From positions 1-34,486 of the IMG/VR virus record IMGVR_UViG_3300047548_001116: a stretch of DNA of 34,486 nucleotides. One strand, given 5' to 3'. The notes under the pieces are model-generated. The model had not been told where the DNA came from and did not search any database. It saw only the letters and a list, made by a program, of their open reading frames with translations. The stretch is from a virus. The translations under genes and the position numbers were made by a program. Of the stretch, positions 1 through 23,383 are shown one piece after another. Each line of letters starts with the position of its first letter. Position 1 is the stretch's first letter.

Positions 1-150
1 GTCGTCGCCGTCGCCGTAGCCTTAGCCGTTGCCGTAGGCGTATCCCTAGCCGTCGCCGTTGCCGTAGCCGTTGCCGTAGCCGTCGCCGTTGCCGTAGCCG
101 TTGCCGTCGCCGTATCCGTAGCCGTAGCCGTTGCCGTATCCGTAGCCGTC
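1..150 (-). repeat. GGCNAC hexanucleotide repeat tract
   Basis: On the minus strand this stretch is almost entirely a six-base unit GGC-NAC, where N is T, A or G, coding alternating Gly with Tyr, Asn or Asp. It forms the C-terminal half of the gene at 46-318 and continues past its stop to the window edge. Two in-frame stops, TAG at 46-48 and TAA at 22-24, each differ from TAC by one base. The tract therefore probably once coded for more protein, or contains sequencing errors. Its left end lies outside the window. Confidence 0.85.
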
Positions 151-318
151 TAATCCAGCAGCGAACATTATTCGACGCTTTTCATCTTCGCCAAATAGTT
201 TCACGCATTCAGAGACAGAGCCATAGAACAATCCCGTTTCTTTACACGCTTCAATAACACCGGACAAGCAAGCGCCTGATCTGACAACGTCTTCAAAAGT
301 TATTACGCGCTCAGCCAT
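46..318 (-). CDS. Gly-Tyr/Asn/Asp repeat protein, truncated in the repeat
   Basis: This 90-residue protein has a non-repetitive N-terminal part (about residues 1-56, containing SGACLSGV and a Lys/Glu-rich helix). It is followed by a low-complexity tail of GYGNG, GYGDG and GYGYG units. Its start overlaps the end of the upstream gene (303-575) by 16 bases, which suggests translational coupling as the last gene of the leftward operon. The tail would be flexible and tyrosine-rich. The stop lies inside the repeat and the repeat continues beyond it, so the present C-terminus may be secondary. I do not recognise a function. Confidence 0.6.
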   Translation of the reverse strand: MAERVITFEDVVRSGACLSGVIEACKETGLFYGSVSECVKLFGEDEKRRIMFAAGLDGYGYGNGYGYGYGDGNGYGNGDGYGNGYGNGDG

Positions 319-630: not shown

Positions 631-1569
631 TTAAAAAGGGAGGTCTTCACCTTCCAGAGTTCCGACCGGCGGCGCTTCCATTCCGGCGAACGGGTCATGT
701 TGTGGCTGTGGGGTATTAGCCGTCTTTGCCAGATTCCATTCATCCGGCATTTTTTCAGCAGTTGCGGGGGTCACATATTCTTGCCCAGATCCTGGAGTGA
801 TTGGCTTTTTCTTTGCTTTCGCCGCTTGGTCAGCTTCCAGATAAGCAGGGACGGCCGCCTCCAGATCAGCCAGTGCCGGGAACTTTTGCGATGTGGTAAT
901 CCCCGCCTTCAATTCGGGGTAGAAAAACATATCACCGGCACCGTTCCACAGTTCGCCCTCTTTTGTACGCTTGGTGAACTTGCCGCCAAAGTGGAACGCC
1001 CAAAAGCGGCCCTGTACATAGAAAAGATCAAAGAGGTTGACACGGGCGGCGTTCTGTTTTGTTTCCGCTGCAATGGCTTCGCGAAGTGATTGCTCCAAGC
1101 CTGCCGTTAATCGCATGGCCACACAGTCGCCGCTTGCGTGGTCATACAGGATGGCATACTTTGCGTATCCTACGCCTTGCGGCAAATCCTTTTTGAAGTC
1201 TTGGTAAATGCCGGATGCCACAAGCACGGAGTTTTCACCGTAGCCCATGCGCACATCAATGGTCTGAGTTCGGGTGTCTTGCACCAGGTTGCTGTAATAG
1301 TTGATGTACCTGGAGCCGTCAGGAATCGTGCCTTGCACACCGGAAAGCATGGCAATGATGGTGCCAGTGAATTTTTCGAGGTGTACGGTTTGCTGGGTGT
1401 CTTTGTCGTAATAGCTGAATCCAGCTTTTACTTTGTCGGGCGTAGCGTCAGCCGCAAATGCCGCCGGTGTTTTGCCTGACCTGTACTCAACGAAACGCAC
1501 CCAGGGGTAAGCGGCACCGCTTTTTGGGATGTCGTTCGTGGTTGGTTGTTCAAATTGGAAAGTGTCCAT
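631..1569 (-). CDS. Probable phage ssDNA-binding protein
   Basis: This 312-residue protein ends in a Pro/Ala-rich linker followed by an acidic tip, GEDLPF. Such a tip is the hallmark of bacterial and phage single-stranded DNA-binding proteins, where it recruits partner enzymes. The first ~240 residues are a globular domain with many aromatic and basic residues (for example GRFWAFHFGGKFTKRTK), compatible with an OB-fold, though I cannot prove the fold. The ATG at 1569 was chosen over an in-frame start at 1863, because the extra N-terminus would overlap the gene at 1595-1939 and reads as out-of-frame sequence. It lies in the leftward early operon, suiting a protein needed in quantity at replication. 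Confidence 0.6.
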   Translation of the reverse strand: MDTFQFEQPTTNDIPKSGAAYPWVRFVEYRSGKTPAAFAADATPDKVKAGFSYYDKDTQQTVHLEKFTGTIIAMLSGVQGTIPDGSRYINYYSNLVQDTRTQTIDVRMGYGENSVLVASGIYQDFKKDLPQGVGYAKYAILYDHASGDCVAMRLTAGLEQSLREAIAAETKQNAARVNLFDLFYVQGRFWAFHFGGKFTKRTKEGELWNGAGDMFFYPELKAGITTSQKFPALADLEAAVPAYLEADQAAKAKKKPITPGSGQEYVTPATAEKMPDEWNLAKTANTPQPQHDPFAGMEAPPVGTLEGEDLPF

Positions 1570-1594
1570 TATACCAAAATTTAAGGTTGAAAAA

Positions 1595-1943: not shown

Positions 1944-2315
1944 TTACACCGTTTGAAGGTTATCGTATACGGTTACATCCTGACCGTTAACATGGTCGTG
2001 GATTGTCACGGTTTCAAAGTCAGTTGAGCCGTGGCGCTGGTCATAGTGCCAGCGGGCGGATTCTTTGATTTCAGAATAGAAATTTTTAGAATCCTGGTCA
2101 CGGGCGGCGGCATTCAAAATGCCGATGCCGTTGGTAACGCACTCTATTTGTTCAATGTGAAAGTCCATGCCCTCAAATACGTCAGCGCCGGAGATGGTGC
2201 AGTAATCGTACTGCGGTTCCGGTTGTAAGGTAACGCGATACAGGTACTCAATGTGCCCATACAGAGGCACTTCTATTTGGTATGGGAAATCAAAGGTGAA
2301 AGACGTAGTGTCCAT
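1944..2315 (-). CDS. Hypothetical protein, first gene of leftward operon
   Basis: This 123-residue acidic protein (MDTTSFTFDFPYQIEVP at the start) has many aromatic and charged residues and no signal peptide, membrane segment or motif that I recognise. It is the first gene downstream of the leftward promoter at 2365-2396, with an untranslated leader of roughly 40-50 bases ending in an A/T-rich stretch. That position makes it an early-expressed phage gene. Only four bases separate it from the next gene. Function unknown. Confidence 0.65.
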   Translation of the reverse strand: MDTTSFTFDFPYQIEVPLYGHIEYLYRVTLQPEPQYDYCTISGADVFEGMDFHIEQIECVTNGIGILNAAARDQDSKNFYSEIKESARWHYDQRHGSTDFETVTIHDHVNGQDVTVYDNLQTV

Positions 2316-2364
2316 GATGTTTAAATTTAGGTGGTGAATGATTTGCTTTCGCTGTTAACTGGGA

Positions 2365-2396
2365 CAAAGATACACACATACTATTGACAATACCAA
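2365..2396 (-). promoter_or_regulatory. Leftward Bacteroidota-type promoter
   Basis: Read on the minus strand, the -7 element is TATCTTTG (2372 to 2365), a match to TAnnTTTG. A TTGG lies 20 bases further upstream (2396 to 2393) at the expected -33 spacing. The -33 side is embedded in the inverted-repeat arm TTGGTATTGTCAA. It would drive the leftward operon beginning at 2315. Confidence 0.7.
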
Positions 2397-2442
2397 GCAA
2401 TATTTAAAAAAAAATATTGGCAAATGTTTGGTATTGTCAATG
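2382..2442. promoter_or_regulatory. Divergent operator region with inverted repeats
   Basis: TTGACAATACCAA (2384-2396) and TTGGTATTGTCAA (2428-2440) are perfect 13-bp inverted repeats. An inner pair CAATATTT (2398-2405) / AAATATTG (2412-2419) has a slightly different centre. Each outer arm contains the near-palindrome TATTG-A/T-CAAT(A/G) and overlaps the -33 region of the promoter facing outward. A perfect copy of TATTGACAATA recurs in the promoter at 9252. This arrangement suggests a repressor or activator acting on both promoters. Confidence 0.65.
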
Positions 2443-2459
2443 CCGCGCCTATACCTTTG
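2427..2459 (+). promoter_or_regulatory. Rightward Bacteroidota-type promoter
   Basis: TTTG at 2427-2430 and TACCTTTG at 2452-2459 are separated by 21 bases, matching the TTTG / TAnnTTTG promoter of Bacteroidota. Its upstream half is the right arm of the inverted repeat. It mirrors the leftward promoter and would transcribe the ribbon-helix-helix-like gene at 2487. Confidence 0.7.
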
Positions 2460-2486
2460 GGCATTGAAAAAAAACGAAGCAATAAA

Positions 2487-2651
2487 ATGACTGAACAAGT
2501 GAAAAAGGAGCGTCGTACCGAATGGATGCAAATAAGGGTTACGCCACAGGAAAAAGAGTTTTTAAAGCAAGCGTTCGGAGATCAAACCGCGTTTGTTCGT
2601 GCGGCAATTCGTCAAGCAGCAAAAGAAAGAGGTGTAACACTTCCAAACTAA
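2487..2651 (+). CDS. Small ribbon-helix-helix-like regulator candidate
   Basis: This 54-residue protein starts MTEQVKKERRTEWMQIRVTP and then reads QEKEFLKQAFGDQTAFVRAA followed by a basic helix. The layout of a short strand (WMQIRVTP), a helix, a turn with Asp-Gln-Thr and a second helix resembles the Arc/MetJ/CopG ribbon-helix-helix fold. The ATG at 2487 was preferred to one at 2424, which would lie upstream of the predicted transcription start. It sits directly behind the rightward divergent promoter and is followed by terminators, so it is probably a monocistronic, autoregulated repressor of the 2382-2442 operator. The fold is likely; the target is inference. Confidence 0.6.
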   Translation: MTEQVKKERRTEWMQIRVTPQEKEFLKQAFGDQTAFVRAAIRQAAKERGVTLPN

Positions 2652-2724
2652 AAAGGCGAGGTAGTGGATGCCTGCAAATGCGTAGGATAACACACCGTTG
2701 ATAATTTCTTTTTACGACCAGTTA

Positions 2725-2755
2725 ACCAAGGCGGCTGTAAAGTAGCCTGGTTTTT
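2725..2755 (+). terminator. Intrinsic terminator after RHH-like gene
   Basis: ACCAAGGC (2725-2732) pairs with GCCTGGT (2745-2751) apart from one bulged A, and the stem runs into TTTTT (2751-2755). It lies 74 bases after the stop of the small regulator gene. Confidence 0.6.
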
Positions 2756-2870
2756 AAAGAGAGTTCATGTTTAGTGAAGCGTCCCGGAGAGCGGTGAAAA
2801 AGGAGCCGGGGCGCATTTTTCGGAAAGGTGTTTTTCAGTTTATACGGTGGTTTGAGATGTATTTGGTCCA

Positions 2871-2913
2871 GGGCGGCTCGACTTGGTTTGGGATGGTAGC
2901 CGCCCTTTTTTTT
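2871..2913 (+). terminator. Strong intrinsic terminator
   Basis: GGGCGGCT (2871-2878) and AGCCGCCC (2898-2905) form a perfect 8-bp stem with a 19-base loop, followed at once by eight T residues (2906-2913). It would isolate the operon starting at 3003 from the regulator gene upstream. Confidence 0.8.
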
Positions 2914-3002
2914 GGCACTCTTTTCATGAGATACATAGGTAAGGGCTGGCGGGGTGAATGTTACACTGCTGGCCCTTTTCATTTGAAAAATTCTAACACG
3001 CA

Positions 3003-3590
3003 ATGAATACTTCACAAACATCCCCCCTGATTGATTCTCTGCGAGAATGGGCACAGATGGTGTCAGGTGGAGCAGGTGTTAAATACACCGTCACTCCGAC
3101 AACTAACAGTGAGGCGCTTAATCTTATGGAAAAGGCGCTTACACTCCCAGCCTGGTTTGCTGGTAAAGGAATCAGGTGCAGGGTATCCAGCAGCCTGGAT
3201 GTGGTGAAAAAAGGGTTTAAGGTCACGGCGGGCACATCTGAGTTTCATGTGAACCCAGTCCATATTCCTTACGCTGGGAAACGTCCGCAGGCAGTGACGG
3301 CAACAAGCCGGGATGCGTATAGGTCCATTAACCTGGATACTCTACAAAGGGAGGTAGTAAAGGCTGCGTTGGAAGCGGGCGAAACATACGACCGTCACCT
3401 TGCTGAAAAAATAGGCAAGGGGCCTAATGATGTGTCAGCGCGTAGGAACGAGCTGGAATTGGGTGATTTTGAATTTAACGGCAAAATGTACCGGATTGAA
3501 TACCATATCCAAAAGCCTTCACTGCATACAGGAAGGCTGGTGCAATGGTGGCGCATTGTGGAGGCCGGGGGGCAGGGGAAACTATTTTAA
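3003..3590 (+). CDS. Phage protein with C-terminal winged-helix-like domain
   Basis: This is a 195-residue protein of two parts. Residues ~1-100 are a mixed alpha/beta region with no motif I recognise. Residues ~108-190 read like a winged helix: two helices (LQREVVKAALEAGE, DRHLAEKIGKGPNDVSARRN), then a strand-turn-strand wing ending in a Trp-Trp pair. The order 'helix, xLAExIGxxPNxVSxRRxEL' is typical of phage HTH proteins that separate coding modules. It opens the rightward replication operon, 22 bases before the HTH replication gene. A role in DNA binding at replication or transcription is inference. Confidence 0.65.
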   Translation: MNTSQTSPLIDSLREWAQMVSGGAGVKYTVTPTTNSEALNLMEKALTLPAWFAGKGIRCRVSSSLDVVKKGFKVTAGTSEFHVNPVHIPYAGKRPQAVTATSRDAYRSINLDTLQREVVKAALEAGETYDRHLAEKIGKGPNDVSARRNELELGDFEFNGKMYRIEYHIQKPSLHTGRLVQWWRIVEAGGQGKLF

Positions 3591-3612
3591 TAACACAAAA
3601 CACGATAATACT

Positions 3613-4464
3613 ATGGCTGGTGGAATTTACAGAAAGAAAAAGGAAAGCAATTATGTGGTGTTAGACAAACACTGCCTACAAAACACATCGCTTTCATGGG
3701 CTGCAAAGGGTTTGCACTCCTATTTAATGGGGTTGCCTGATGACTGGAAAGTCACGGTTTCTGACCTGAAAAACAGAAGCAAGGACGGCCGCGATGCGAC
3801 CTCCTCAGCTATGCAGTCACTTATTCAGGCTGGATATGTTGTGAGAGAATCAGAACACGACAAAGCCGGGCGGTTTGCTGGATACAATTACTATGTGTTT
3901 GAAACGCCAGAGCAGGCAAGCGAGTTCTTAAGCACATCAACCGTTTCGGGATTAACCGTTTACGGGTTTTCCGAAAACGGTAAAACCGAAAACGGAAAAT
4001 CTGGAACTACTAAGTATTATAATAACCAAATAACCAATAAACTAACAGAAGAAGAAACGCGCGAAAGTGATTTTTCGCAGTTCGAAGAAAAACCCCTCTT
4101 AGCAAAAGATAGTGGCCCGGCCGCCGCCGCGCCGCAAACACCGGCACCGCATCCCTTCCAATCCTTCGACATAGACCGCGCGGCGGAAAGCCTGACAGCC
4201 GATCCGCTTTGCATTGACCGATTTGGCCGGACGCTTGCATGTTCGCCAGAAACGGCAGCGGCCAAACATCCAGCAGCTGTTATCGAGTTCGTTGCCGACC
4301 AAAAGGCGGTGGGCTATACATACAACAACGACCGTGATTTTCGCAGCCACTATTTCAACTGGCTCCCGCTTCGGGTGGCGAAGAAGCGTGCAGAGGCACA
4401 AAAGCAAGTCCAAGTAAGTGCCAATACGACTTTCATCCCCAAAAACATCCCTGTATTCAGATGA
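3613..4464 (+). CDS. Helix-turn-helix replication initiator-like protein
   Basis: This 283-residue protein has residues ~1-75 (VVLDKHCLQNTSLSWAAKGL, LPDDWKVTVSDL, then DATSSAMQSLIQAGYV) that match the winged-helix start of phage replication proteins of the DnaD/replisome-organiser type. A low-complexity acidic and Pro/Ala-rich linker (~130-190) follows. A C-terminal helical region (~190-270) would be the helicase-loading or origin-binding end. The ATG at 3613 was chosen because the family sequence starts there and an A/C-rich leader precedes it. It overlaps the methyltransferase gene as ATGA and lies three genes before a DnaB-like helicase, which supports a role in replication initiation. Confidence 0.75.
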   Translation: MAGGIYRKKKESNYVVLDKHCLQNTSLSWAAKGLHSYLMGLPDDWKVTVSDLKNRSKDGRDATSSAMQSLIQAGYVVRESEHDKAGRFAGYNYYVFETPEQASEFLSTSTVSGLTVYGFSENGKTENGKSGTTKYYNNQITNKLTEEETRESDFSQFEEKPLLAKDSGPAAAAPQTPAPHPFQSFDIDRAAESLTADPLCIDRFGRTLACSPETAAAKHPAAVIEFVADQKAVGYTYNNDRDFRSHYFNWLPLRVAKKRAEAQKQVQVSANTTFIPKNIPVFR

Positions 4465-5144
4465 GCAGCGATAAACAACCGATTTCCATCGTACAGAACC
4501 GGGATTGCATGGAAGCTATGGCAGAGTTCCCGGATAAGTTTTTTGAACTGGCTATTGTTGACCCGCCGTATGGGTTGGGCAATAGACTTAGCGACGGAGG
4601 CGGCAAGCTGAAGAACACGCCAATGAGTGTTTTATACAAAAACTCTAACAAGTGGGACTCTTCTACGCCTGACGAATCTTATTTTGAAGAGCTTTTTCGT
4701 GTGTCTAAACATCAAATAATTTGGGGAGGTAATTATTTTAAACTGCCACCATCCAGATGTATGATTTGTTGGGACAAAAAACAGGATATGCCAACACTTT
4801 CCGCGTGGGAACTTGGATGGTCCTCATTTGATAAGCCATCAAAAATATTTGAGTGTGTTTCTACTGACTTAAGCAGATTCCACCCCACCCAAAAGCCCAT
4901 AGCCCTATACAAGTGGCTTTTACAGAACTACGCAAAGCCGGGTGACAAGATACTTGACACTCATTTAGGTTCTGGCAGTTCCAGGATTGCGGCTTATGAT
5001 ATGGGTTTTGATTTTTGGGGCTACGAACTGGATGCAGACTATTTCGAGGCAATGGAAAAGCGATTCAAAACCCATATTTCAAAGCCGACACTTTTTGCCC
5101 CGGAGCAGATGTACCATTTTGAACAAACTGCTTTAGACTTATGA
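4461..5144 (+). CDS. Adenine/cytosine-N DNA methyltransferase (beta class)
   Basis: This 227-residue enzyme transfers a methyl group from S-adenosylmethionine to an exocyclic amino group of DNA. The catalytic motif DPPYGLG is at residues 34-40. The conserved HPTQKP is at 141-146 and the SAM-binding motif DTHLGSGSS at 166-174. Catalytic motif before SAM motif is the beta-class order. No restriction partner is adjacent, so it is probably an orphan phage methylase that protects phage DNA from host restriction or controls replication. ATGA overlaps at both ends (4461-4464 and 5141-5144) couple it to its neighbours. Target sequence cannot be read from the protein. Confidence 0.92.
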   Translation: MSSDKQPISIVQNRDCMEAMAEFPDKFFELAIVDPPYGLGNRLSDGGGKLKNTPMSVLYKNSNKWDSSTPDESYFEELFRVSKHQIIWGGNYFKLPPSRCMICWDKKQDMPTLSAWELGWSSFDKPSKIFECVSTDLSRFHPTQKPIALYKWLLQNYAKPGDKILDTHLGSGSSRIAAYDMGFDFWGYELDADYFEAMEKRFKTHISKPTLFAPEQMYHFEQTALDL

Positions 5145-5461
5145 AAGCCGCCGAACAAATACAGGTGCTTAAATACCGCTTTAACTGTCATAAGCAGGAC
5201 ACGGCCGGATTTACCCTGGATATTGAAAGCCTGACAGACGATGAGGCCTTTGAAATGGCACCTGTTATGCAGGATACTATTAACGGGCTTTCATCCTTGG
5301 TCCTAAAAATAGTACACCCCAAACAAGCCCCGGAACTAAAAACCCAGATTGCTTACCTGATCGCCCTCCGCGACAGGCAGGAAAGAGCCTGGGACGCAAA
5401 GCGAACAGAATATAAAACCCGCTTAAATAACACTAAACAATGGGTGCAGAACCACGCCTAA
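5141..5461 (+). CDS. Hypothetical helical protein
   Basis: This 106-residue protein appears mainly alpha-helical, with charged helices in the second half (DRQERAWDAKRTEYKTRLNN). It has no cysteine cluster, membrane segment or known motif. It overlaps the methyltransferase by four bases and the helicase by 22, so it is translated from the same message. Its place between a replication protein and a helicase suggests a replication accessory function, but nothing in the sequence proves it. Confidence 0.65.
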   Translation: MKAAEQIQVLKYRFNCHKQDTAGFTLDIESLTDDEAFEMAPVMQDTINGLSSLVLKIVHPKQAPELKTQIAYLIALRDRQERAWDAKRTEYKTRLNNTKQWVQNHA

Positions 5462-6819
5462 CGATTGAACAGGAAATCCAACAGCGCCACGACACGGCAA
5501 TGCAGACACTCGCCTGCCGCTGCCTTGGGGAGCCCTACAACTTCCATCGCATTGCCTCCATGCTTTCCCCTGGCATGATGCAGGGCGACAGCGCTTGGTC
5601 TGCTATCATTCGGGAGTGCCTAAGCCAGTACACAGCAAAGGATAGCTACACCCCGCAAAGCATAGCCCTTGCCTGCCGGATTGCAAATAGCCAGGCCATT
5701 GAATATGCCAAGAAAGACAGTGAAATGTCTTTACCTGATGCAATGGAGGCTTACACGCTTTATCACGGGCAGTGGGCAGAGGTGCGTATTAGCGAGCTAA
5801 CAAAGGGCTATGTACTGCGCGGGATGACCACTGAAGAGATCCAAGTTGAGCAGGCAAAAGCCCGCAGAGAGTTTGGATTAACTGGCAGGCTAAACACATC
5901 CGACGGCCGTGACGAATTTGAAGCGGAACTACTTGCAGCACTGGAAGGTAAACAATTTACTTTCCCGGTAACACCTTGCCTGTCTGGCATGGAAAAGTTT
6001 GTAAACTTCTACGAGCCGGGGGATTATATAGTAATAGCAGCGCTTTCCCGGATTGGGAAAAGCTACTACGCACTAAATCAGGTCTACCATAATGCAGTAC
6101 GCGGCGTTCCATCTTGCGTTATCAATCTGGAGATGACCCCAAAGCATGTGCAAAAGCGTATCTGGCAAATGCACGCAGATATTAAGTTCAGCCGCGACAT
6201 GCGCGGCCCTGACACCCAGACAATGAACGCACTAAAGGCATGGGACGAGGTTAAGAAAATGCCTTTCAGGTCATACAACCCCGGCCCGACATTACCCGCT
6301 GTGCTGTCTACGATCCGGCAGGATTACCACGAACGTGGCATCCAGTTTGCCGTCGTGGATTACGCACAGTTAATGAACATTCCAGGATACCGAGGCGGAC
6401 GCAATTACGAGTTAGGAGAAATCAGCGCGGCATTCAGGGCGCTTGCCCTGGAATTGCAGATTCCAATCATGGTGCTGGCTCAGTTGAAGCAGGAAGTGGA
6501 GCAGCGCGGCGACAAAAAGGGCGGGCTGTTTGACATTAAGGATTGCGCCAACTTTTCGCAGGACGCTACAATGGTGCAGGTGCTATACAGGCCCGATGTG
6601 TACGACATTGCTACTGATGCAAACGGTATTCCATACCCTGAAGGATATGCAGAGGTGTTTATCGCAAAGGGCCGGGAGGTTGGCCACGGCCTTGTTGAAG
6701 CGCGGTTTAATCCGGTTAAAGGCTTTAACAACCCTGAGCAATGGCCACAAACCCAATTCCCCATCAAAGAAACATTCACCCCACAAAGACCAAGCGCAAC
6801 AGATGACATACCATTTTGA
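5440..6819 (+). CDS. DnaB-like replicative helicase
   Basis: This 459-residue protein has a helical N-terminal region (~1-165) and a RecA-type ATPase domain. The Walker A region reads AALSRIGKSYYALN (residues 200-213), in the DnaB form (A-A/R-x-S-x-x-GKT/S). Walker B is VVDYAQLM (305-312), followed by the sensor segment LAQLKQEVEQR and the DnaB-like FSQDATMVQVLYR. It would unwind DNA at the phage replication fork. No primase domain is present. Unusually it ends in DDIPF, an SSB-like tip. The start at 5440 overlaps the previous gene by 22 bases. Confidence 0.9.
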   Translation: MGAEPRLTIEQEIQQRHDTAMQTLACRCLGEPYNFHRIASMLSPGMMQGDSAWSAIIRECLSQYTAKDSYTPQSIALACRIANSQAIEYAKKDSEMSLPDAMEAYTLYHGQWAEVRISELTKGYVLRGMTTEEIQVEQAKARREFGLTGRLNTSDGRDEFEAELLAALEGKQFTFPVTPCLSGMEKFVNFYEPGDYIVIAALSRIGKSYYALNQVYHNAVRGVPSCVINLEMTPKHVQKRIWQMHADIKFSRDMRGPDTQTMNALKAWDEVKKMPFRSYNPGPTLPAVLSTIRQDYHERGIQFAVVDYAQLMNIPGYRGGRNYELGEISAAFRALALELQIPIMVLAQLKQEVEQRGDKKGGLFDIKDCANFSQDATMVQVLYRPDVYDIATDANGIPYPEGYAEVFIAKGREVGHGLVEARFNPVKGFNNPEQWPQTQFPIKETFTPQRPSATDDIPF

Positions 6820-6979
6820 CCCCGGCGAAATAGTCCTTTTCACCCCGGCCCACGAGGCAACAGCCTGGGCCAAAGGTCGGCGGCGTGTGCTGCGAGTGTT
6901 GGGGGATTACATACAACTTGAGTGCGGCAACATTAAGCTACTGGCAACGGTAGCTGAACTAAAAAAGGTAAGCAAATGA
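6803..6979 (+). CDS. Small hypothetical protein
   Basis: This is a 58-residue basic protein (MTYHFDPGEIVLFTPAHEAT at the start) that looks like a small beta-barrel, with strands such as RRVLRVLGDYIQLEC and NIKLLATVAEL. It overlaps the helicase end by 17 bases and ends in an ATGA overlap with a possible 25-codon frame. The composition would suit an SH3- or KOW-like nucleic-acid-binding fold, but this is only an impression. It appears to be the last well-supported gene before the hairpin at 6988. Confidence 0.6.
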   Translation: MTYHFDPGEIVLFTPAHEATAWAKGRRRVLRVLGDYIQLECGNIKLLATVAELKKVSK

Positions 6980-7053
6980 GTCAAGATAAAAAAGCCCCTG
7001 TTTTATTGCAGGGGCTAAAGGTCATTTTTTTGGTCGCTTTTTCTTTTTCATAA
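6976..7053 (+). CDS. Possible 25-residue peptide
   Basis: A 25-codon frame starts at the ATGA overlap with the previous gene. It encodes a short polar start (MSQDKKAP) and a hydrophobic C-terminal half (GLKVIFLVAF), then ends at TAA 7051-7053. A GC hairpin lies within it, so the reading may be chance rather than a true micropeptide. Confidence 0.2.
   Translation: MSQDKKAPVLLQGLKVIFLVAFSFS
6988..7016 (-). terminator. Hairpin with T-tract on the minus strand
   Basis: AGCCCCTG (6993-7000) and CAGGGGCT (7009-7016) form a perfect 8-bp stem. On the minus strand the stem is followed directly by six T residues (6993 down to 6988). On the plus strand the next T-run (7026-7032) starts nine bases away. 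It therefore looks better as a terminator of leftward transcription, although both flanking genes point right. It could still act weakly in the plus direction. Confidence 0.5.
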
Positions 7054-7071
7054 CAGAAAATTTGATAAACA

Positions 7072-7845
7072 ATGGACAAATATATTGCTTTTTCAGGCGG
7101 GGTTGAAAGTACAGTTATGTGTATTTTATACGGCAAAGGTTCTACGGCTGTATTCACTGATACAGGAAGCGAACATGCGGAAATGTACCGCCGTATTGAC
7201 CAAGTTGAAAAAAGACTGATTGAAATTCATAATGGAGACTTTAAGCTGGTAAGGCTTAGAGCCAGCGTAACAGCAAAGGGGGAAAAAGTCTCATCATTAA
7301 CTGATTATGTAAAGCGCATGCAGTATTTCCCAAGTGGAGGCGACAGATATTGCACAAGGCTTTTCAAAATTGGCCCACTTGATGCCTTCCTAAAATCAAA
7401 AGGACAGGCTGAATTGATGATTGGTTTAAATGCCGATGAAACAGACAGAGAGGGTAATTACGGCTTATTGTCAAACGTAAATTATAGATACCCATTGCAA
7501 GAAGATGGCTACACTCGCCAGGATTGTGTAGACATACTTGAAAAGTACGACTTAAAGCCAGATTTCCCGGCATACATGCGGCGAGGTGGATGTGTTTTTT
7601 GCCCGTTTAAGTCAAAAAAAGAGTACAAAGCAATGGTGCATTTGGCTATTGATGAAATAGAAGCGATTAGAGAACTGGAAGAAATGTGTCAAGATAAAAG
7701 GGGAAAGTATTACCGTCTAAGGCAAAATATGCCATCATTAAGGGATTTTATAGAGCAGGAAAAAAACAACCTGTTTGGGGACTTATCGCCATACTACGAC
7801 GCATGGGAGGAACAGTATTCATGCGGCGTTTTTTGTCACCGATAA
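7072..7845 (+). CDS. PP-loop / PAPS-reductase-like enzyme
   Basis: This 257-residue protein belongs to the PP-loop ATP-pyrophosphatase superfamily. The nucleotide-binding loop is SGGVEST (8-14), a variant of SGGxDS with Glu for Asp. RYCTRLFK (92-99) matches the R-x-C-T-x-x-x-K signature of the PAPS-reductase/DndC-like branch. IGLNADETDRE (~117-127) fits the GxxADExxR pattern. A CxxC pair (C174, C177) sits in GGCVFCPFK. Such enzymes adenylate a substrate before sulfur or nitrogen transfer. In phages the substrate is usually unknown; the CxxC pair would suit an Fe-S cluster or thiol relay. No complete dnd set is nearby, so phosphorothioation is not claimed. Confidence 0.85.
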   Translation: MDKYIAFSGGVESTVMCILYGKGSTAVFTDTGSEHAEMYRRIDQVEKRLIEIHNGDFKLVRLRASVTAKGEKVSSLTDYVKRMQYFPSGGDRYCTRLFKIGPLDAFLKSKGQAELMIGLNADETDREGNYGLLSNVNYRYPLQEDGYTRQDCVDILEKYDLKPDFPAYMRRGGCVFCPFKSKKEYKAMVHLAIDEIEAIRELEEMCQDKRGKYYRLRQNMPSLRDFIEQEKNNLFGDLSPYYDAWEEQYSCGVFCHR

Positions 7846-7856
7846 ACACTAAAACA

Positions 7857-8174
7857 ATGACCCGCGATTACGAAGAAATATGCCAGAGATACGGCGTGCA
7901 TTCCCTCTGTGATCTGGCTAACGAACTGGAGCGGCGCGGCTTTCCCCGGCCTGAAACCTTCCAAGCCCGGCAAGTCTGGTACAACACCGGCGGGACGCGG
8001 GTAGAGGTTGTGAGATTCAGGAATGGCCTTGCGGCTGAATATTACATGAATGACGGCCGATTCTGGCAAAGAAAAATGATTAAAAACTCACCAGGGGCAT
8101 TTGCAGTGTATCTGCCTACGGTTCACGAAATAAAGACATGGGAAATTTCAAAGGATGGACAGCTGATAAAGTAG
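7857..8174 (+). CDS. Hypothetical protein
   Basis: This 105-residue protein starts at the ATG of MTRDYEEICQRYGVHSL, after the stop of the PP-loop gene; an in-frame ATG at 7803 would overlap that gene and read as shifted sequence. The first ~45 residues form a helical unit (LCDLANELERRGFPRP) reminiscent of a small HTH. The rest is beta-rich with a Tyr/Trp-rich face. It overlaps the VRR-NUC-like gene by 37 bases, a long overlap that suggests strict co-translation. Function unknown. Confidence 0.6.
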   Translation: MTRDYEEICQRYGVHSLCDLANELERRGFPRPETFQARQVWYNTGGTRVEVVRFRNGLAAEYYMNDGRFWQRKMIKNSPGAFAVYLPTVHEIKTWEISKDGQLIK

Positions 8175-8569
8175 AGGCATTAGCGCGGGAAATGTCAGCG
8201 CGCAGCATTGACCGCAAAGAGGCGGCGAGGAGGGTAAAGCCCAAAGAGTCAGCAAACCAAATAACGGCCAATCTAATCAGGGCTATCAATATGCAGCCCC
8301 GGTGTGTGGCATATCGGATAAATAATGTGGGGGTGTGGGACGCTGCAAAAGAGGTGTACCGGAAGGGCAACACTCAGAAAGGCATTTTTGATATTTCAGC
8401 AGTGATCCGGGGCCGGGCGGTATGGATAGAGATTAAAGCGGGGCGGGATAAGCCTTCGCCCGATCAGCTTCTTTTCCAACAGGAAGTGAGGTTATCCGGG
8501 GGTGTTGCTGAGTTCGTGTACTCTACGGAGGAAGGGTTGAAGCTATTAACCAAACTGATTTCTGAATGA
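8138..8569 (+). CDS. VRR-NUC-like nuclease (PD-(D/E)XK fold)
   Basis: This is a 143-residue protein. Its C-terminal half (residues ~48-140) carries the order expected of VRR-NUC nucleases. GIFDISAV supplies the metal-binding Asp (D85), WIEIKAG supplies Glu and Lys (E98, K100), and a Gln-rich helix (PSPDQLLFQQEV) is followed by a strand with a Val/Ala core. VRR-NUC proteins act as Holliday-junction or flap nucleases, so a role in recombination or trimming replication intermediates is likely. About 40 basic helical residues precede the domain. ATGA overlap with the next gene. Confidence 0.8.
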   Translation: MGNFKGWTADKVEALAREMSARSIDRKEAARRVKPKESANQITANLIRAINMQPRCVAYRINNVGVWDAAKEVYRKGNTQKGIFDISAVIRGRAVWIEIKAGRDKPSPDQLLFQQEVRLSGGVAEFVYSTEEGLKLLTKLISE

Positions 8570-8910
8570 AGCACCACATCGTTTACATGCTATTACATCT
8601 CCCCTGCATTTGGCGCGTAAAAATCGGCATAACAGGCCGGACTGCGAAAGCAAGGGCAAAGCAGGTTAGCAGGGCCATGCCCGGCGTTGCCGTACCAATC
8701 GGATTTATGTTTTTGCCACTGATTGCAAAGCCAGTTGAACAAGCGCTCCACCACTTGTTTCAACCGCTCGAAACGAGGTTCTACCGGGGCGACGGATCAA
8801 CAGAATGGTTCCTTGTTTTGGTCGCCCCTGTGTTCTGGGGGCTGATGTGGCTGCACGTGGTCGCGTGGTGGTGGGTAATTCAGTTCACACTTAAATACAT
8901 TGGACAATGA
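8566..8910 (+). CDS. GIY-YIG-like (T5orf172-type) protein with membrane tail
   Basis: This is a 114-residue protein. Residues ~1-80 resemble the T5orf172/MUG113 branch of GIY-YIG domains: IVYMLL...WRVKIGITGR with a basic helix (RAKQVSRAM), then VEQALHHLFQPLETRFY and STEWF. Instead of ending there, the chain continues with a strongly hydrophobic, Trp-rich segment (about residues 80-108) that would span a membrane. The canonical Tyr-Ile-Gly is represented by KIGITG; whether it is catalytic is unclear. ATGA overlaps on both sides place it within the DNA-processing operon. Confidence 0.6.
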   Translation: MKHHIVYMLLHLPCIWRVKIGITGRTAKARAKQVSRAMPGVAVPIGFMFLPLIAKPVEQALHHLFQPLETRFYRGDGSTEWFLVLVAPVFWGLMWLHVVAWWWVIQFTLKYIGQ

Positions 8911-9200
8911 GTAAGCTAATAACAAGAATCAGGGAGTTCATTATCGGCAAAGGGCGCAAAAACATGGTCATTCGCCACTTCCTTGCTGAAACCTGCCAGG
9001 AAGAGCGACACAACAACTGCTTTTCATGGGGCAGCCTTCGCATACAGTTGGACCATGATTCACCGATTAAAGGCGTGGAGTTCCAGGAGCGGGTGTATGT
9101 GAGCATATACGATCCTCAAACGGACACTATGTTGCAGTTTAGTGTACCGGTTGAAGAGGTGCAGTTTGAGGAAAACGCCCTTGGTGAAACGGAGATTTAA
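8907..9200 (+). CDS. Hypothetical protein
   Basis: This 97-residue protein has a basic N-terminus (MSKLITRIREFIIGKGRK), then a mixed region with CQEERHNNC and a beta-rich acidic C-terminus. Two cysteines flank a His/Asn-rich turn, but there is no complete metal-binding pattern. Its start overlaps the membrane-tailed GIY-YIG-like gene by four bases. It is the last gene of the replication operon before a new promoter at 9252. Function unknown. Confidence 0.6.
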   Translation: MSKLITRIREFIIGKGRKNMVIRHFLAETCQEERHNNCFSWGSLRIQLDHDSPIKGVEFQERVYVSIYDPQTDTMLQFSVPVEEVQFEENALGETEI

Positions 9201-9251
9201 TCGCTGTTTTTTATGGGTTGAAAAAATATTTTAGTTAAAATCTAATAAAGG

Positions 9252-9283
9252 TATTGACAATATCAAAAAGGGGTGTATCTTTG
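9252..9283 (+). promoter_or_regulatory. Promoter with palindromic TATTGACAATA box
   Basis: TATTGACAATA (9252-9262) is a perfect 11-base palindrome with a central A, identical to the box at 2382-2392. Its TTG (9254-9256) stands 19 bases before TATCTTTG (9276-9283), a match to TAnnTTTG. Transcription would start near 9290 and run into the small-gene cassette at 9328. The shared box suggests joint regulation with the divergent early promoters. Confidence 0.75.
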
Positions 9284-9327
9284 TACTATCAATAACAAAC
9301 GCCGAAAGGCACTAAATAACCTGAAAC

Positions 9328-9591
9328 ATGACAACGATGGAAAAAGTACAAAAAGCTCAAGAAATCTTGAACGAAAATTTTTCTTTTACCTCAGTAGAGG
9401 TTTCTAACTGGAATAACGAAAGAATATACATTAACCGACCAGATCAAAGCAAAGCATATCAGGCTGTTGGGTATGTTAGAATTTCTGACGGAAAAACATT
9501 CCCTGCGTTTGGTACTAAGGCTCGTACTGAGCGCGACCGCGACGCACAAAAAATGCTTGATTTTGTTGCAGATGTATTGACGAGCGCATAA
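9328..9591 (+). CDS. Hypothetical small protein, first gene of cassette
   Basis: This 87-residue protein begins MTTMEKVQKAQEILNENFSF. It appears to consist of a helix, three or four strands (SVEVSNWNNERIYINRP, AVGYVRISDGKTFPAFG) and a final helix with an Arg/Asp-rich turn. No known motif was seen. It follows the palindrome-bearing promoter with a ~40-base leader. Its codons are more A/T-rich than those of the flanking operons, as in the rest of this cassette. Function unknown; an early host-takeover or accessory role is a guess from position. Confidence 0.65.
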   Translation: MTTMEKVQKAQEILNENFSFTSVEVSNWNNERIYINRPDQSKAYQAVGYVRISDGKTFPAFGTKARTERDRDAQKMLDFVADVLTSA

Positions 9592-9619
9592 ATATTTAAC
9601 AAACTAAAAACTCTGAATT

Positions 9620-9802
9620 ATGAACACTCAAGAAATTATCGCTACCCTGAAAAACGAATCTCCAAAAAACTTCGACGTTGATCGTGCTTTTCAAGCCGCT
9701 GACCAAGAGAAAAACTTTTCTTTCAAGTTTGGCAAAACAAAAGAACATTGGACAAGCACCCAGTGGAATGAAGTTGCCAAAGAAGTTAAGGCAAAAATGT
9801 AA
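9620..9802 (+). CDS. Hypothetical small protein
   Basis: This is a 60-residue charged, Lys-rich protein (MNTQEIIATLKNESPKNFDV at the start) with a predicted helix-loop-helix and a Trp pair in the second half (EHWTSTQWNEVAKE). It lies 28 bases downstream of the previous gene and is followed by a hairpin with a T-run, so it may mark a partial stop within the cassette message. No family recognised. Confidence 0.6.
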   Translation: MNTQEIIATLKNESPKNFDVDRAFQAADQEKNFSFKFGKTKEHWTSTQWNEVAKEVKAKM

Positions 9803-9814
9803 CCACCCTCCCCA

Positions 9815-9842
9815 CGCCCTGAAATACGGGCGGGTATTTTTT
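9815..9842 (+). terminator. Hairpin/T-run between cassette genes
   Basis: CGCCC (9815-9819) pairs with GGGCG (9828-9832) and is followed by GGTATTTTTT. The 3' half and the following bases are repeated almost exactly at 10081-10105. The stem is short, so termination is probably partial. Confidence 0.5.
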
Positions 9843-9862
9843 CACACTAAAAATACATTGAC

Positions 9863-10060
9863 ATGAACGCAGATTTAAAAACAACATTAGGACTTAGGAA
9901 TAAAATTGATCAATTTTCATCCTTAGAAAGTGCAAATAGATGGGCTAACAACTGTATAAAATTGCACATTGTTATGCTTGGCGATAACGGAAAATATTGG
10001 GTGGCTTGTTTTTCAGATGCTCAAAAACTTTTTAAAATGGGCTATGAACTCGCAAAATAA
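9863..10060 (+). CDS. Hypothetical small protein
   Basis: This 65-residue protein reads as helix (LKTTLGLRNKIDQFSSLESA), then a strand-rich centre (IVMLGDNGKYWVACF) and a short closing helix. There is one central Cys and no recognisable motif. It is flanked on both sides by near-identical hairpin/leader copies (9822-9846 and 10081-10105), which suggests that it or its neighbour arose by insertion or duplication of a gene-leader unit. Confidence 0.6.
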   Translation: MNADLKTTLGLRNKIDQFSSLESANRWANNCIKLHIVMLGDNGKYWVACFSDAQKLFKMGYELAK

Positions 10061-10071
10061 CCCCCGCAACC

Positions 10072-10101
10072 CCCGCCATTAAATACGGGCGGGTATTTCT
10101 T
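10072..10101 (+). terminator. Hairpin/T-run, copy of the 9815 element
   Basis: CCCGCC (10072-10077) and GGCGGG (10088-10093) form a 6-bp stem, followed by TATTTCTT. Bases 10081-10105 repeat 9822-9846 with one mismatch. The next start codon lies 22 bases beyond the T-run. Confidence 0.55.
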
Positions 10102-10123
10102 CACAAACTTAAATTTTTGAAAC

Positions 10124-10357
10124 ATGAGCTACCAAGTAATTAAATCTAAAGCAGAAGGCCCAAGTAATGACCCGGTAATTTTGTCATCTGAAATATTAGA
10201 CTCTGGCCTAACCCATGACGGCGCAAATGAGGTACTTTACTACGAGGCACATGGCTATAAAAGATCAGGCGCTCAAGTGATAGAAAAGAATGACAGGATT
10301 GTGATAGTAGATGAATCAGACCGCGCTAAATATGTACTTGACATTGTTGAAGCATGA
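10124..10357 (+). CDS. Hypothetical small protein
   Basis: This is a 77-residue acidic protein (MSYQVIKSKAEGPSNDPVIL at the start) with strands in the N-terminal third and near the end (RIVIVDESDRAKYVLDIV). No motif recognised. Its stop overlaps the start of the RHH-like gene as ATGA, so the two are translationally coupled. Pairing of a small acidic protein with a small basic RHH protein recalls toxin-antitoxin or regulator pairs, but there is no family match to support that. Confidence 0.6.
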   Translation: MSYQVIKSKAEGPSNDPVILSSEILDSGLTHDGANEVLYYEAHGYKRSGAQVIEKNDRIVIVDESDRAKYVLDIVEA

Positions 10358-10533
10358 GTAAAAAAACATCGAACAACCCAAAAGGAGCCGGAGCCAAACC
10401 AAAGCACCCAAGCGGTACAAAGGTGAGGCTCTCGCTTCGCCTCCGGGCTGACATTCACAACAAAATCAAGCAAGACGGTCGCGGCGCTGTGGTCGTGATC
10501 GAAGAAGCGCTGGAGCAATACTTTAACCTTTAA
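10354..10533 (+). CDS. Small ribbon-helix-helix-like protein
   Basis: This 59-residue protein has a disordered, basic N-terminus with NPKGAGAKPKHPSGTK. It is followed by a strand (VRLSLRLRADI), a helix (HNKIKQDG) and a second helix (VVVIEEALEQYF). This is the layout of CopG/MetJ-type DNA-binding proteins, and the NPKGAGRKP-like lead is common in phage versions. It starts at an ATGA overlap with 10124-10357 and is 11 bases before the next gene. It is the second RHH-like protein of the window and a candidate regulator of the cassette. Confidence 0.65.
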   Translation: MSKKTSNNPKGAGAKPKHPSGTKVRLSLRLRADIHNKIKQDGRGAVVVIEEALEQYFNL

Positions 10534-10544
10534 AACTTTGAAAC

Positions 10545-10748
10545 ATGGATAGCTACCAAAAATTAACTATTGAAATGCTGCCTGGTGACACGCCGCGCGA
10601 AAAGTACGAAAGCATGAGGAAAATTGCAAAGCTTTTAAACGATCTTGCTTTCCCTTCGCGTGGATCTGAAGCAGAAAGCGCAGATGTAGAACACTTCGCT
10701 AAAATTGCGGAGAGTATTCTGGAAGGTGAACCGATTAATGTTGAATAA
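10545..10748 (+). CDS. Hypothetical small acidic helical protein
   Basis: This 67-residue protein (MDSYQKLTIEMLPGDTPREK at the start) is mostly alpha-helical and acidic. The final helix is VEHFAKIAESILEG. It contains no Cys or Trp. It is the last gene of the cassette and is followed within four bases by a strong terminator. A leader with TTTGAAAC precedes its start, the same leader used at 10124 and similar to the one at 9328. Function unknown. Confidence 0.6.
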   Translation: MDSYQKLTIEMLPGDTPREKYESMRKIAKLLNDLAFPSRGSEAESADVEHFAKIAESILEGEPINVE

Positions 10749-10791: not shown

Positions 10792-10800
10792 GTATATTTG
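10770..10800 (+). promoter_or_regulatory. Promoter nested in the terminator
   Basis: TTTG (10770-10773) in the terminator loop and TATATTTG (10793-10800) just past the stem are 19 bases apart, fitting the Bacteroidota pattern. Transcription would begin near 10807, about 20 bases before the start at 10829. Confidence 0.65.
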
Positions 10801-14682: not shown

Positions 14683-14735
14683 TTTACCCCGTTACATAGT
14701 GGGCCTACTTTTGTGTACAAACAAACACAAACACT
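14683..14735 (+). promoter_or_regulatory. Promoter and A/C-rich leader of abundant virion gene
   Basis: TACTTTTG (14706-14713) matches TAnnTTTG; TTTA (14683-14686) lies 19 bases upstream as a weak -33. The leader then reads as ACAAAC repeats (14717-14735) up to the ATG. The same 19 bases plus ATGGCT recur before the major capsid gene. Such unstructured A/C-rich leaders suit strong translation in Bacteroidota. Confidence 0.6.
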
Positions 14736-21886: not shown

Positions 21887-23171
21887 CGCCGACGGTTCGC
21901 CGTGGGTTAATGTCGTCACGTCATCCTCCATTGACACAAACACCCTCGAATATAGCTCCGACGGTTCACCATGGACGGGCATAGGCCCCGACAGTTCGGG
22001 CGGTTCTTACACGCTGACGGCGGCGGCCGGTGCGTTCACGCTTACCGGGCAAGCGGCCGGCCTTTTGGTTGCCCTGAATTTAATTGCAAGTGCTGGCAGC
22101 TTTACACTTACGGGCAATGATGCCGGACTGTCCAGGGGCGTATCTATCCAGGCTGATTCCGGAGCCTTTACGCTGACAGGTCAGGATGCAGGCCTAACGC
22201 GATCGCTTCGCCTAACTGCTGATCCTGGAGCTTTCACGCTTACGGGGCAAGACATAACCCTGACGCGGGCGCTGAAGATCACAGCCGATTCAGGCACATA
22301 CGACCTTACAGGATACGCGGCCGGGCTGTTAAAATCCGATGTCTTAACGGCAAACACCGGCACGTTCACCCTGACGGGCAGCGATGCCGGATTAGTTAAG
22401 GCCTCAAAGCTAACAGCCGATTCCGGAGCCTTCGCGCTTACGGGACAAGACGCGGGCCTGTTAACCGGGCAGCGATTAACGGCCGACCCTGGAACGTTCA
22501 CCCTGACTGGATACGATGCCGGACTTTTAAGAGGCGAAAGCCTGACGGCCGATGCAGGCGCGTTCACGCTTACCGGGCAAGACGTTGGACTAATCCGGGC
22601 CATTCGCCTAACGGCTGATGCCGGGGCCTTCACCCTGACGGGAGGCGACGTTCAGTTCTCGCAGGATGGGCAACTGATTGCCAGCGCCGGGGTATTTACG
22701 CTGACGGGACGCGATGCCGGATTATTGCGGGCGCTTCGCCTAACAGCCGATGCAGGCAGCTTCACATTAACAGGATCAGACGCGGCACTATCCAGGGGCG
22801 TATCTATCCAGGCAGGCGCGGGTTCGTACACACTGACGGGCGTAGAGGCCGGATTAATCAAAGCCTCAAAGCTAACAGCCGATGCCGGGGCGTTCACTTA
22901 TACGGGATACGCTGCGGGCCTGTTAAACTCCGATGTCTTAACAGCCAATACCGGCACATTCACCCTGACGGGCTATGATGCCACGTTTACGGTCGCGCGG
23001 GTGTTACCATGCGACGCGGGTAGTTATGCGCTTACGGGACAAGACGCGGGCCTTATTCGGGCTACCATCATGCAGGCGGGCGCGGGTTCTTACACGCTGA
23101 CAGGGCAGGATGCCGGATTGGTGTATTCAGGCGAGGAAATATTTGTGCCGGTAGTGGCATTCTTTTACTAA
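21849..23171 (+). CDS. Fibre-like protein of seventeen 22-residue repeats
   Basis: This is a 440-residue protein. After ~60 residues (including two SADGSPW/SSDGSPW motifs) it is built from seventeen consecutive 22-residue units of the type xFTLTGxDAGLxRxxxLTADxG; the last one is partial and runs into a hydrophobic end (VPVVAFFY). The ATG at 21849 is used; a TTG one codon earlier is possible. Each unit would give two to three short strands, so a beta-solenoid or repetitive fibre shaft is likely. It overlaps its upstream neighbour by 38 bases and sits among fibre genes. Probably a virion-surface adhesin or fibre. Confidence 0.75.
   Translation: MISQEEILKLQHSADGSPWVNVVTSSSIDTNTLEYSSDGSPWTGIGPDSSGGSYTLTAAAGAFTLTGQAAGLLVALNLIASAGSFTLTGNDAGLSRGVSIQADSGAFTLTGQDAGLTRSLRLTADPGAFTLTGQDITLTRALKITADSGTYDLTGYAAGLLKSDVLTANTGTFTLTGSDAGLVKASKLTADSGAFALTGQDAGLLTGQRLTADPGTFTLTGYDAGLLRGESLTADAGAFTLTGQDVGLIRAIRLTADAGAFTLTGGDVQFSQDGQLIASAGVFTLTGRDAGLLRALRLTADAGSFTLTGSDAALSRGVSIQAGAGSYTLTGVEAGLIKASKLTADAGAFTYTGYAAGLLNSDVLTANTGTFTLTGYDATFTVARVLPCDAGSYALTGQDAGLIRATIMQAGAGSYTLTGQDAGLVYSGEEIFVPVVAFFY
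22032..23132 (+). repeat. 66-bp tandem repeats in the 21849 gene
   Basis: Sixteen full units of exactly 66 bases and part of a seventeenth encode the 22-residue repeats; no insertion or deletion breaks the phase. Distant units share longer identical stretches: 22131-22153 equals 22791-22813 (ten units apart), and the segment from 22401 equals that from 22863 (seven units apart). This indicates copying among repeats. Confidence 0.9.
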
Positions 23172-23185
23172 ACGAAACAAGAAAC

Positions 23186-23383
23186 ATGAAAAAAATACAC
23201 CTTCAAAACCTGGTAGCCATCTGCGATCTGGCTGTACAAAAAGGACTTATCCACCCGGACGACCTGATTAACGTCGGGCTATCCAGAAAGGCCGCTATTG
23301 ATACGGCGGCGGCAATGGGCGACGCTGACGAACTGGAAGTTAAACGGGATGAAACGCCGGGAGAGGCAAAAGAAAAGAAATAA
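23186..23383 (+). CDS. Hypothetical small protein
   Basis: This 65-residue protein is helical in its first two thirds (LQNLVAICDLAVQKGLIHPD, then SRKAAIDTAAAMGDAD) with a charged tail. It starts 14 bases after the repeat gene, behind an A-rich leader with GAAACAAGAAAC. It ends three bases before the next fibre gene. No family recognised; possibly a fibre chaperone by position only. Confidence 0.55.
   Translation: MKKIHLQNLVAICDLAVQKGLIHPDDLINVGLSRKAAIDTAAAMGDADELEVKRDETPGEAKEKK

Follow-up and report, generated by a model that had tools for sequence, protein, structure and literature searches.

A palindromic 11-nt box recurs at three intergenic sites in the 34,486-base virus record that we analyzed at its full length (hereafter the window), each time within a predicted promoter of the Bacteroidota type. 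Two of the copies occupy a divergent pair of early promoters, P1 and P2, in which they form part of a longer inverted repeat, and the third lies in P3, the promoter of a cassette of small genes. We interpret the box as the putative operator of a phage-encoded repressor, most likely the small ribbon-helix-helix (RHH)-like protein encoded first in the P2 operon, with the P3 copy probably under the same protein. We hold this interpretation to be evenly poised between right and wrong, since the sites are solid, the regulator is plausible but weakly assigned, and no relative with the P1/P2 region turned up in the searchable collections.

A palindromic box within predicted promoters

The exact form of the box, TATTGACAATA, is found at 2382-2392 and 9252-9262, and a version with one change, TATTGTCAATG, at 2432-2442, as the first-pass annotation had reported. 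It had noticed no further promoter-linked copy, and this also holds: a search of the whole window for TATTGWCAATA with at most one change recovers no site besides these three. Two exact copies are observed against 0.017 expected, and none of 300 dinucleotide shuffles in 200-nt blocks yielded two; for copies with up to one change the count is three against 0.65 expected, a number reached in 2 of 60 shuffles. Intergenic DNA constitutes 4.0% of the window in our ORF reading and holds all three copies, with none inside a gene. Each is positioned 5' of a TANNTTTG -7 box within a Bacteroidota-type promoter. The recurrence of the box in the window is confirmed as real and above chance, and the data support a non-random, promoter-linked palindrome restricted to early promoters.

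Promoters were predicted by a scan for TANNTTTG, the -7 box of Bacteroidota, preceded by a TTG. The TAnnTTTG -7 box has been set at -12 to -5 in Flavobacterium psychrophilum (PMC9723704), and the positions given here relative to +1 depend on starts predicted from that placement. The leftward early promoter P1 has the -7 box TATCTTTG at 2365-2372 on the minus strand (predicted +1 at ~2360); the rightward early promoter P2 has TACCTTTG at 2452-2459 on the plus strand (predicted +1 at ~2464); and P3 has TATCTTTG at 9276-9283 on the plus strand (predicted +1 at ~9288). A fourth promoter, P4, with its -7 box at 10793 (plus strand) and an upstream TTG, lacks the palindrome, and at the -7 box at 14706 the scan found no suitably spaced TTG. 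The palindrome is missing at 14706 as well, in agreement with the first-pass annotation, which had described these two promoters (from 10770 and 14683) as devoid of the box.

The copies are not placed identically within the three promoters. Those at 2382 and 2432 occupy -32 to -22 of P1 and P2, respectively, and the 9252 copy is shifted by 4 bp to -36 to -26 of P3. At P3 the -33 TTG lies inside the box, with a spacing of 19 nt to the -7 box. In P1 and P2 just 15 nt separate the box-internal TTG from the -7 box, a distance that is too short; the -33 element of these promoters is likely to be the TTGG found just upstream of the box, at a spacing of 21 nt, with the box then filling the spacer. 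The earlier claim that all three copies overlap a -33 region is therefore correct for the 9252 copy, while the other two abut the element. All three sites fall within promoters conforming to the Bacteroidota primary consensus TTG-N19-21-TAnnTTTG (PMC9723704 for the -7 box), but the 11-nt dyad is no part of that consensus.

If the 11-mer were simply the standard -33 element of Bacteroidota promoters, its TTG and the 19-nt spacing at P3 would be accounted for, but neither the 15-nt distance at P1 and P2, nor the dyad symmetry, nor the inverted repeat of 17 nt described below would be. Across 296 Bacteroidota genomes, the 11-mer followed by TANNTTTG at 11-15 nt gives 5 matches versus 3 for a reversed control. 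This is the background level, and the 11-mer is thus no plain host -33 word; we reject this explanation as largely refuted and very improbable, and the result favors the observation on a point that the first-pass annotation had itself named as its test. The pattern TTGGTATTGTCAAT-N9-11-TANNTTTG has 13 matches in genome contigs. Those from Bacteroidota include unrelated host promoters (for example, before an apparent tRNA gene) and one that is repeated in related freshwater genomes, and the flanks inspected display no phage-like operon. We read these matches as background.

The divergent P1/P2 pair and its candidate repressor

The copies at 2382 and 2432 are embedded in a 17-nt inverted repeat that the first-pass annotation had overlooked. 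Its left arm (2383-2399, plus strand) includes the P1 -33 TTGG (2396-2393, minus strand), its right arm (2425-2441, minus strand) includes the P2 -33 TTTGG (2427-2431), and the two are separated by a 25-nt A+T-rich spacer (2400-2424). The arms match at 16 of 17 positions; shuffling the intergenic spacer between the divergent promoters 200 times gave no arms better than 14 of 17. The 9-nt stretches between the box and the -7 box, GTATGTGTG and CCGCGCCTA, are unrelated at P1 and P2, which suggests that the box itself has been maintained rather than the whole promoter, and that the likeness of the two promoters is more than the leftover of an inverted duplication. Filling the same -32 to -22 position of two divergent early promoters, these copies read as a double operator, and they constitute the strongest part of the finding, ahead of the 9252 copy.

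An A+T-rich inverted repeat with an A-tract spacer between its arms, ~1.1 kb upstream of a gene for an initiator-like protein (3613-4464), might alternatively be a replication origin or a site for that phage initiator. We consider this quite improbable: the arms coincide exactly with the promoter spacers on both sides, there are only two copies in the region with no iteron array, and a further copy is present at a distant promoter.

P1 precedes a leftward operon, the first gene of which (1944-2315, minus strand) has no assigned function. Further along, the gene at 631-1577 (minus strand; its start within the ORF 631-1863 is uncertain) encodes a protein with a C-terminal EGEDLPF tail (631-657), read from the sequence. 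This tail is like that of single-strand binding proteins, a likeness on which its putative function is based. The helicase-like protein (5440-6819, plus strand) likewise ends in an SSB-like C-terminus, ATDDIPF (6796-6819), and the helicase of the related phage L004 ends in ADIPF. Queries with the 2487-2651 protein, the helicase, the leftward genes and the inverted repeat/spacer DNA recovered no relative with the P1/P2 region in the searchable collections. A helicase profile search of Bacteroidota genomes gave matches in nearly every genome but no clear prophage, and we read these as host DnaB helicases. Rfam yielded no match across 2200-9500.

Heading the P2 operon, the gene at 2487-2651 (plus strand) encodes a 54-aa RHH-like protein, MTEQVKKERRTEWMQIRVTPQEKEFLKQAFGDQTAFVRAAIRQAAKERGVTLPN. 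It matches the Pfam NikA-like profile with E 1.1e-4 and 22.7 bits, below the cut-off of 27, and TacA1 with E 0.08. A single-sequence structural model has an extended N-terminus followed by helices at residues 20-29 and 34-48, at low confidence (pLDDT 66); a fold search of the PDB with this weak model returned no match. We found no convincing homologue in the collections searched, and annotated phages contained no match to this protein or to the second RHH-like protein discussed below. Its predicted N-terminal strand and first helix match the start of the profile of the NikA/MobC-type RHH relaxosome proteins (PF21983); however, the match is sub-threshold and covers just 21 profile positions, and we noticed neither a relaxase nor an oriT in the window. 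The promoter of this gene carries the dyad box inside its core (-32 to -22). As the first gene behind P2, it stands where autorepressors are commonly encoded. The 2487-2651 product is the natural candidate, and most likely the protein that reads the box as an autorepressor.

From this arrangement we infer that the box is bound, that the 2487-2651 protein is the binder, that binding represses transcription, and that P3 may be part of the same circuit. The two predicted operators, inverted and 50 bp apart from center to center, fill the -33/-7 spacers of the divergent promoters, such that a repressor dimer on each box would block the host RNA polymerase at both P1 and P2. The 54-aa protein would build up early from the P2 operon and, once sufficiently abundant, would shut off both early operons, its own included. 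The outcome would be delayed negative feedback or, if the phage is temperate, a stable off state. With the third copy covering the -33 element of P3, the small-gene cassette would probably come under the same protein in this phage.

The third copy, the P3 leader and the small-gene cassette

The P3 promoter can be compared across relatives, of which L003, L004 and L005 possess a terminase 96% identical to that of the window. All three keep the -33 TTG, the -7 box and the start of the transcript, but the position of the box reads CTTGCACAATT; the 9252 copy has been lost or not yet gained in these phages. The role of operator may be limited to the P1/P2 pair, with the 9252 copy being a chance product of an A+T-rich -33 region that needs a TTG in any case. 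The relatives' orthologous promoter, with its conserved leader, and the 4-bp offset of this copy relative to +1 are both consistent with such an origin, which we consider a distinct possibility, though one somewhat short of even. Against it, the window has just one other exact copy, and in shuffles of the 9201-9327 spacer alone the exact 11-mer arose in just 6 of 20,000, which makes chance alone an unlikely source. It is possible that the copy was gained in this lineage, or that operators change along with their regulator. P3 is accordingly a tentative third operator site, and of the regulon of three promoters that the first-pass annotation proposed, two (P1 and P2) are retained as probable; the third, offset by 4 bp and without the box in three relatives, is retained only tentatively. 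Repetition of a motif inside a single phage is thus compatible with its absence at the orthologous promoter of phages whose terminase is 96% identical, and recurrence within a genome is therefore by itself no proof of a conserved regulon.

What is conserved at P3 is the -7 box and the start of the transcript. In the window the latter (9286-9310, plus strand) comprises CTATCA (9286-9291) and a GCC-GAAA-GGC hairpin (9301-9310). Comparison of six related phages, namely the window, L003, L004, L005 and the more distant L086 and L088, recovers GTATCTTTG, CTATCA and CCGNAAGGCA as common elements, with the -7 box invariant and the palindromic box unconserved. L086 was recruited via its helicase and L088 via the leader pattern, so the latter was selected for having the leader. 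The conserved starts are at 9276-9310 in the window, 128-163 in L003, 6522-6557 in L004, 4088-4123 in L005, 2854-2883 in L086 and 9158-9129 (minus strand) in L088. The hairpin has the general form GCC-GNRA-GGC, with the loops GAAA, GCAA and GGAA. Four leaders were folded (-4.9 kcal/mol), and in the L005 leader the outer stem pair is broken. A TATCTTTG box followed by the leader hairpin is rare, with 3 matches versus 0 for the control in 148 host genomes. The hairpin could be a stabilizer of the mRNA 5'-end or a binding site, both being possible.

L086 additionally shows, at 5426-5500 and 5894-5968, two TATCTTTG promoters followed by similar structured sequence: a GCAAT..ATTGC hairpin, a second hairpin and then GAAAGCGTTT. 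They resemble a pair of related small non-coding RNAs, near which Rfam gives a single match, to IMES-3 (5645-5772), far below the gathering score. Two other repeats were observed in the window itself: a simple repeat of GCCGTA-like units at its left edge (1-150), partly within an ORF at 46-318 (minus strand), and internal repeats at 22095-23295 in the gene at 21.8-23.2 kb, apparent from the numerous overlapping alignments between this gene and its counterpart in relatives.

Downstream of the leader lies a variable small-gene cassette, spanning 9328-10748 in the window, 186-1247 in L003, 6581-7025 in L004 and 4146-4873 in L005. Its first gene in the window (9328-9591, plus strand) encodes 87 aa, and the relatives have other small ORFs in this place; the first genes thus differ (87, 63, 71 and 69 aa in the window and relatives) under a conserved promoter, with the gene for the second RHH-like protein kept. 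The cassette may represent a hotspot of accessory or anti-defence genes.

This second protein (59 aa; 10354-10533, plus strand) is conserved in L003, L004 and L005. It shows weak matches to the BrnA antitoxin (E 0.011) and Arc-like repressors (E 0.067) and a weak omega-repressor alignment, and its likely RHH strand is VRLSLRLRAD. Its L004 counterpart shares 72% identity and an unchanged strand region, and those of L003 and L005 share 77% identity over the matched part. That the reader of the box is a host repressor, or this protein acting in the manner of an Aca regulator at an anti-CRISPR operon, is unlikely in our estimate. The probable RHH strand, the weak profile matches and the position of the gene in the P3 operon, preserved at the end of a changing cassette, would be in keeping with a regulatory role for the 10354-10533 protein. 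However, it is conserved, strand included, in precisely those relatives whose P3 lacks the box, which makes it an unlikely reader; if it binds at P3, it should recognize something that their promoters share, and L086 and L088 have the leader without the protein. The first-pass annotation had proposed one of the two RHH-like proteins as the candidate regulator; the choice narrows to the 2487-2651 product.

Relation to known phage repressors

In phage P22, Arc (53 aa) and Mnt are RHH repressors that bind short dyad operators located within promoters of the phage, repressing genes nearby. The putative system in the window resembles these in combining a very small RHH-type protein with a short dyad in a phage promoter, but differs in operator sequence, host phylum and promoter type, and our searches detected no sequence homology of the 2487-2651 protein to Arc or Mnt. 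A further parallel is offered by the Aca regulators, small DNA-binding proteins that autorepress anti-CRISPR operons through a short inverted repeat situated within their core promoter (PMC9410906). Here too a small DNA-binding protein appears to be encoded alongside small early genes of the phage, and an inverted repeat lies in the core promoter. The known Aca1-10 families, however, are helix-turn-helix proteins (PMC9410906), whereas those in the window are RHH-like, and the cassette RHH gene is kept where the box is missing. No known anti-CRISPR was identified in this phage.

The kind of switch proposed here is well known. We suggest only tentatively, and regard as rather doubtful, that it represents an undescribed RHH-type early repressor of a Bacteroidota phage, with a dual divergent operator and a recently captured promoter of a swappable cassette, the relatives' promoter using other signals. 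Transcription control in Bacteroidota phages seems to be little described. If our interpretation is correct, this phage would possess a compact early-gene switch, with a specific operator and a 54-aa candidate regulator, operating in the -33/-7 promoter system.
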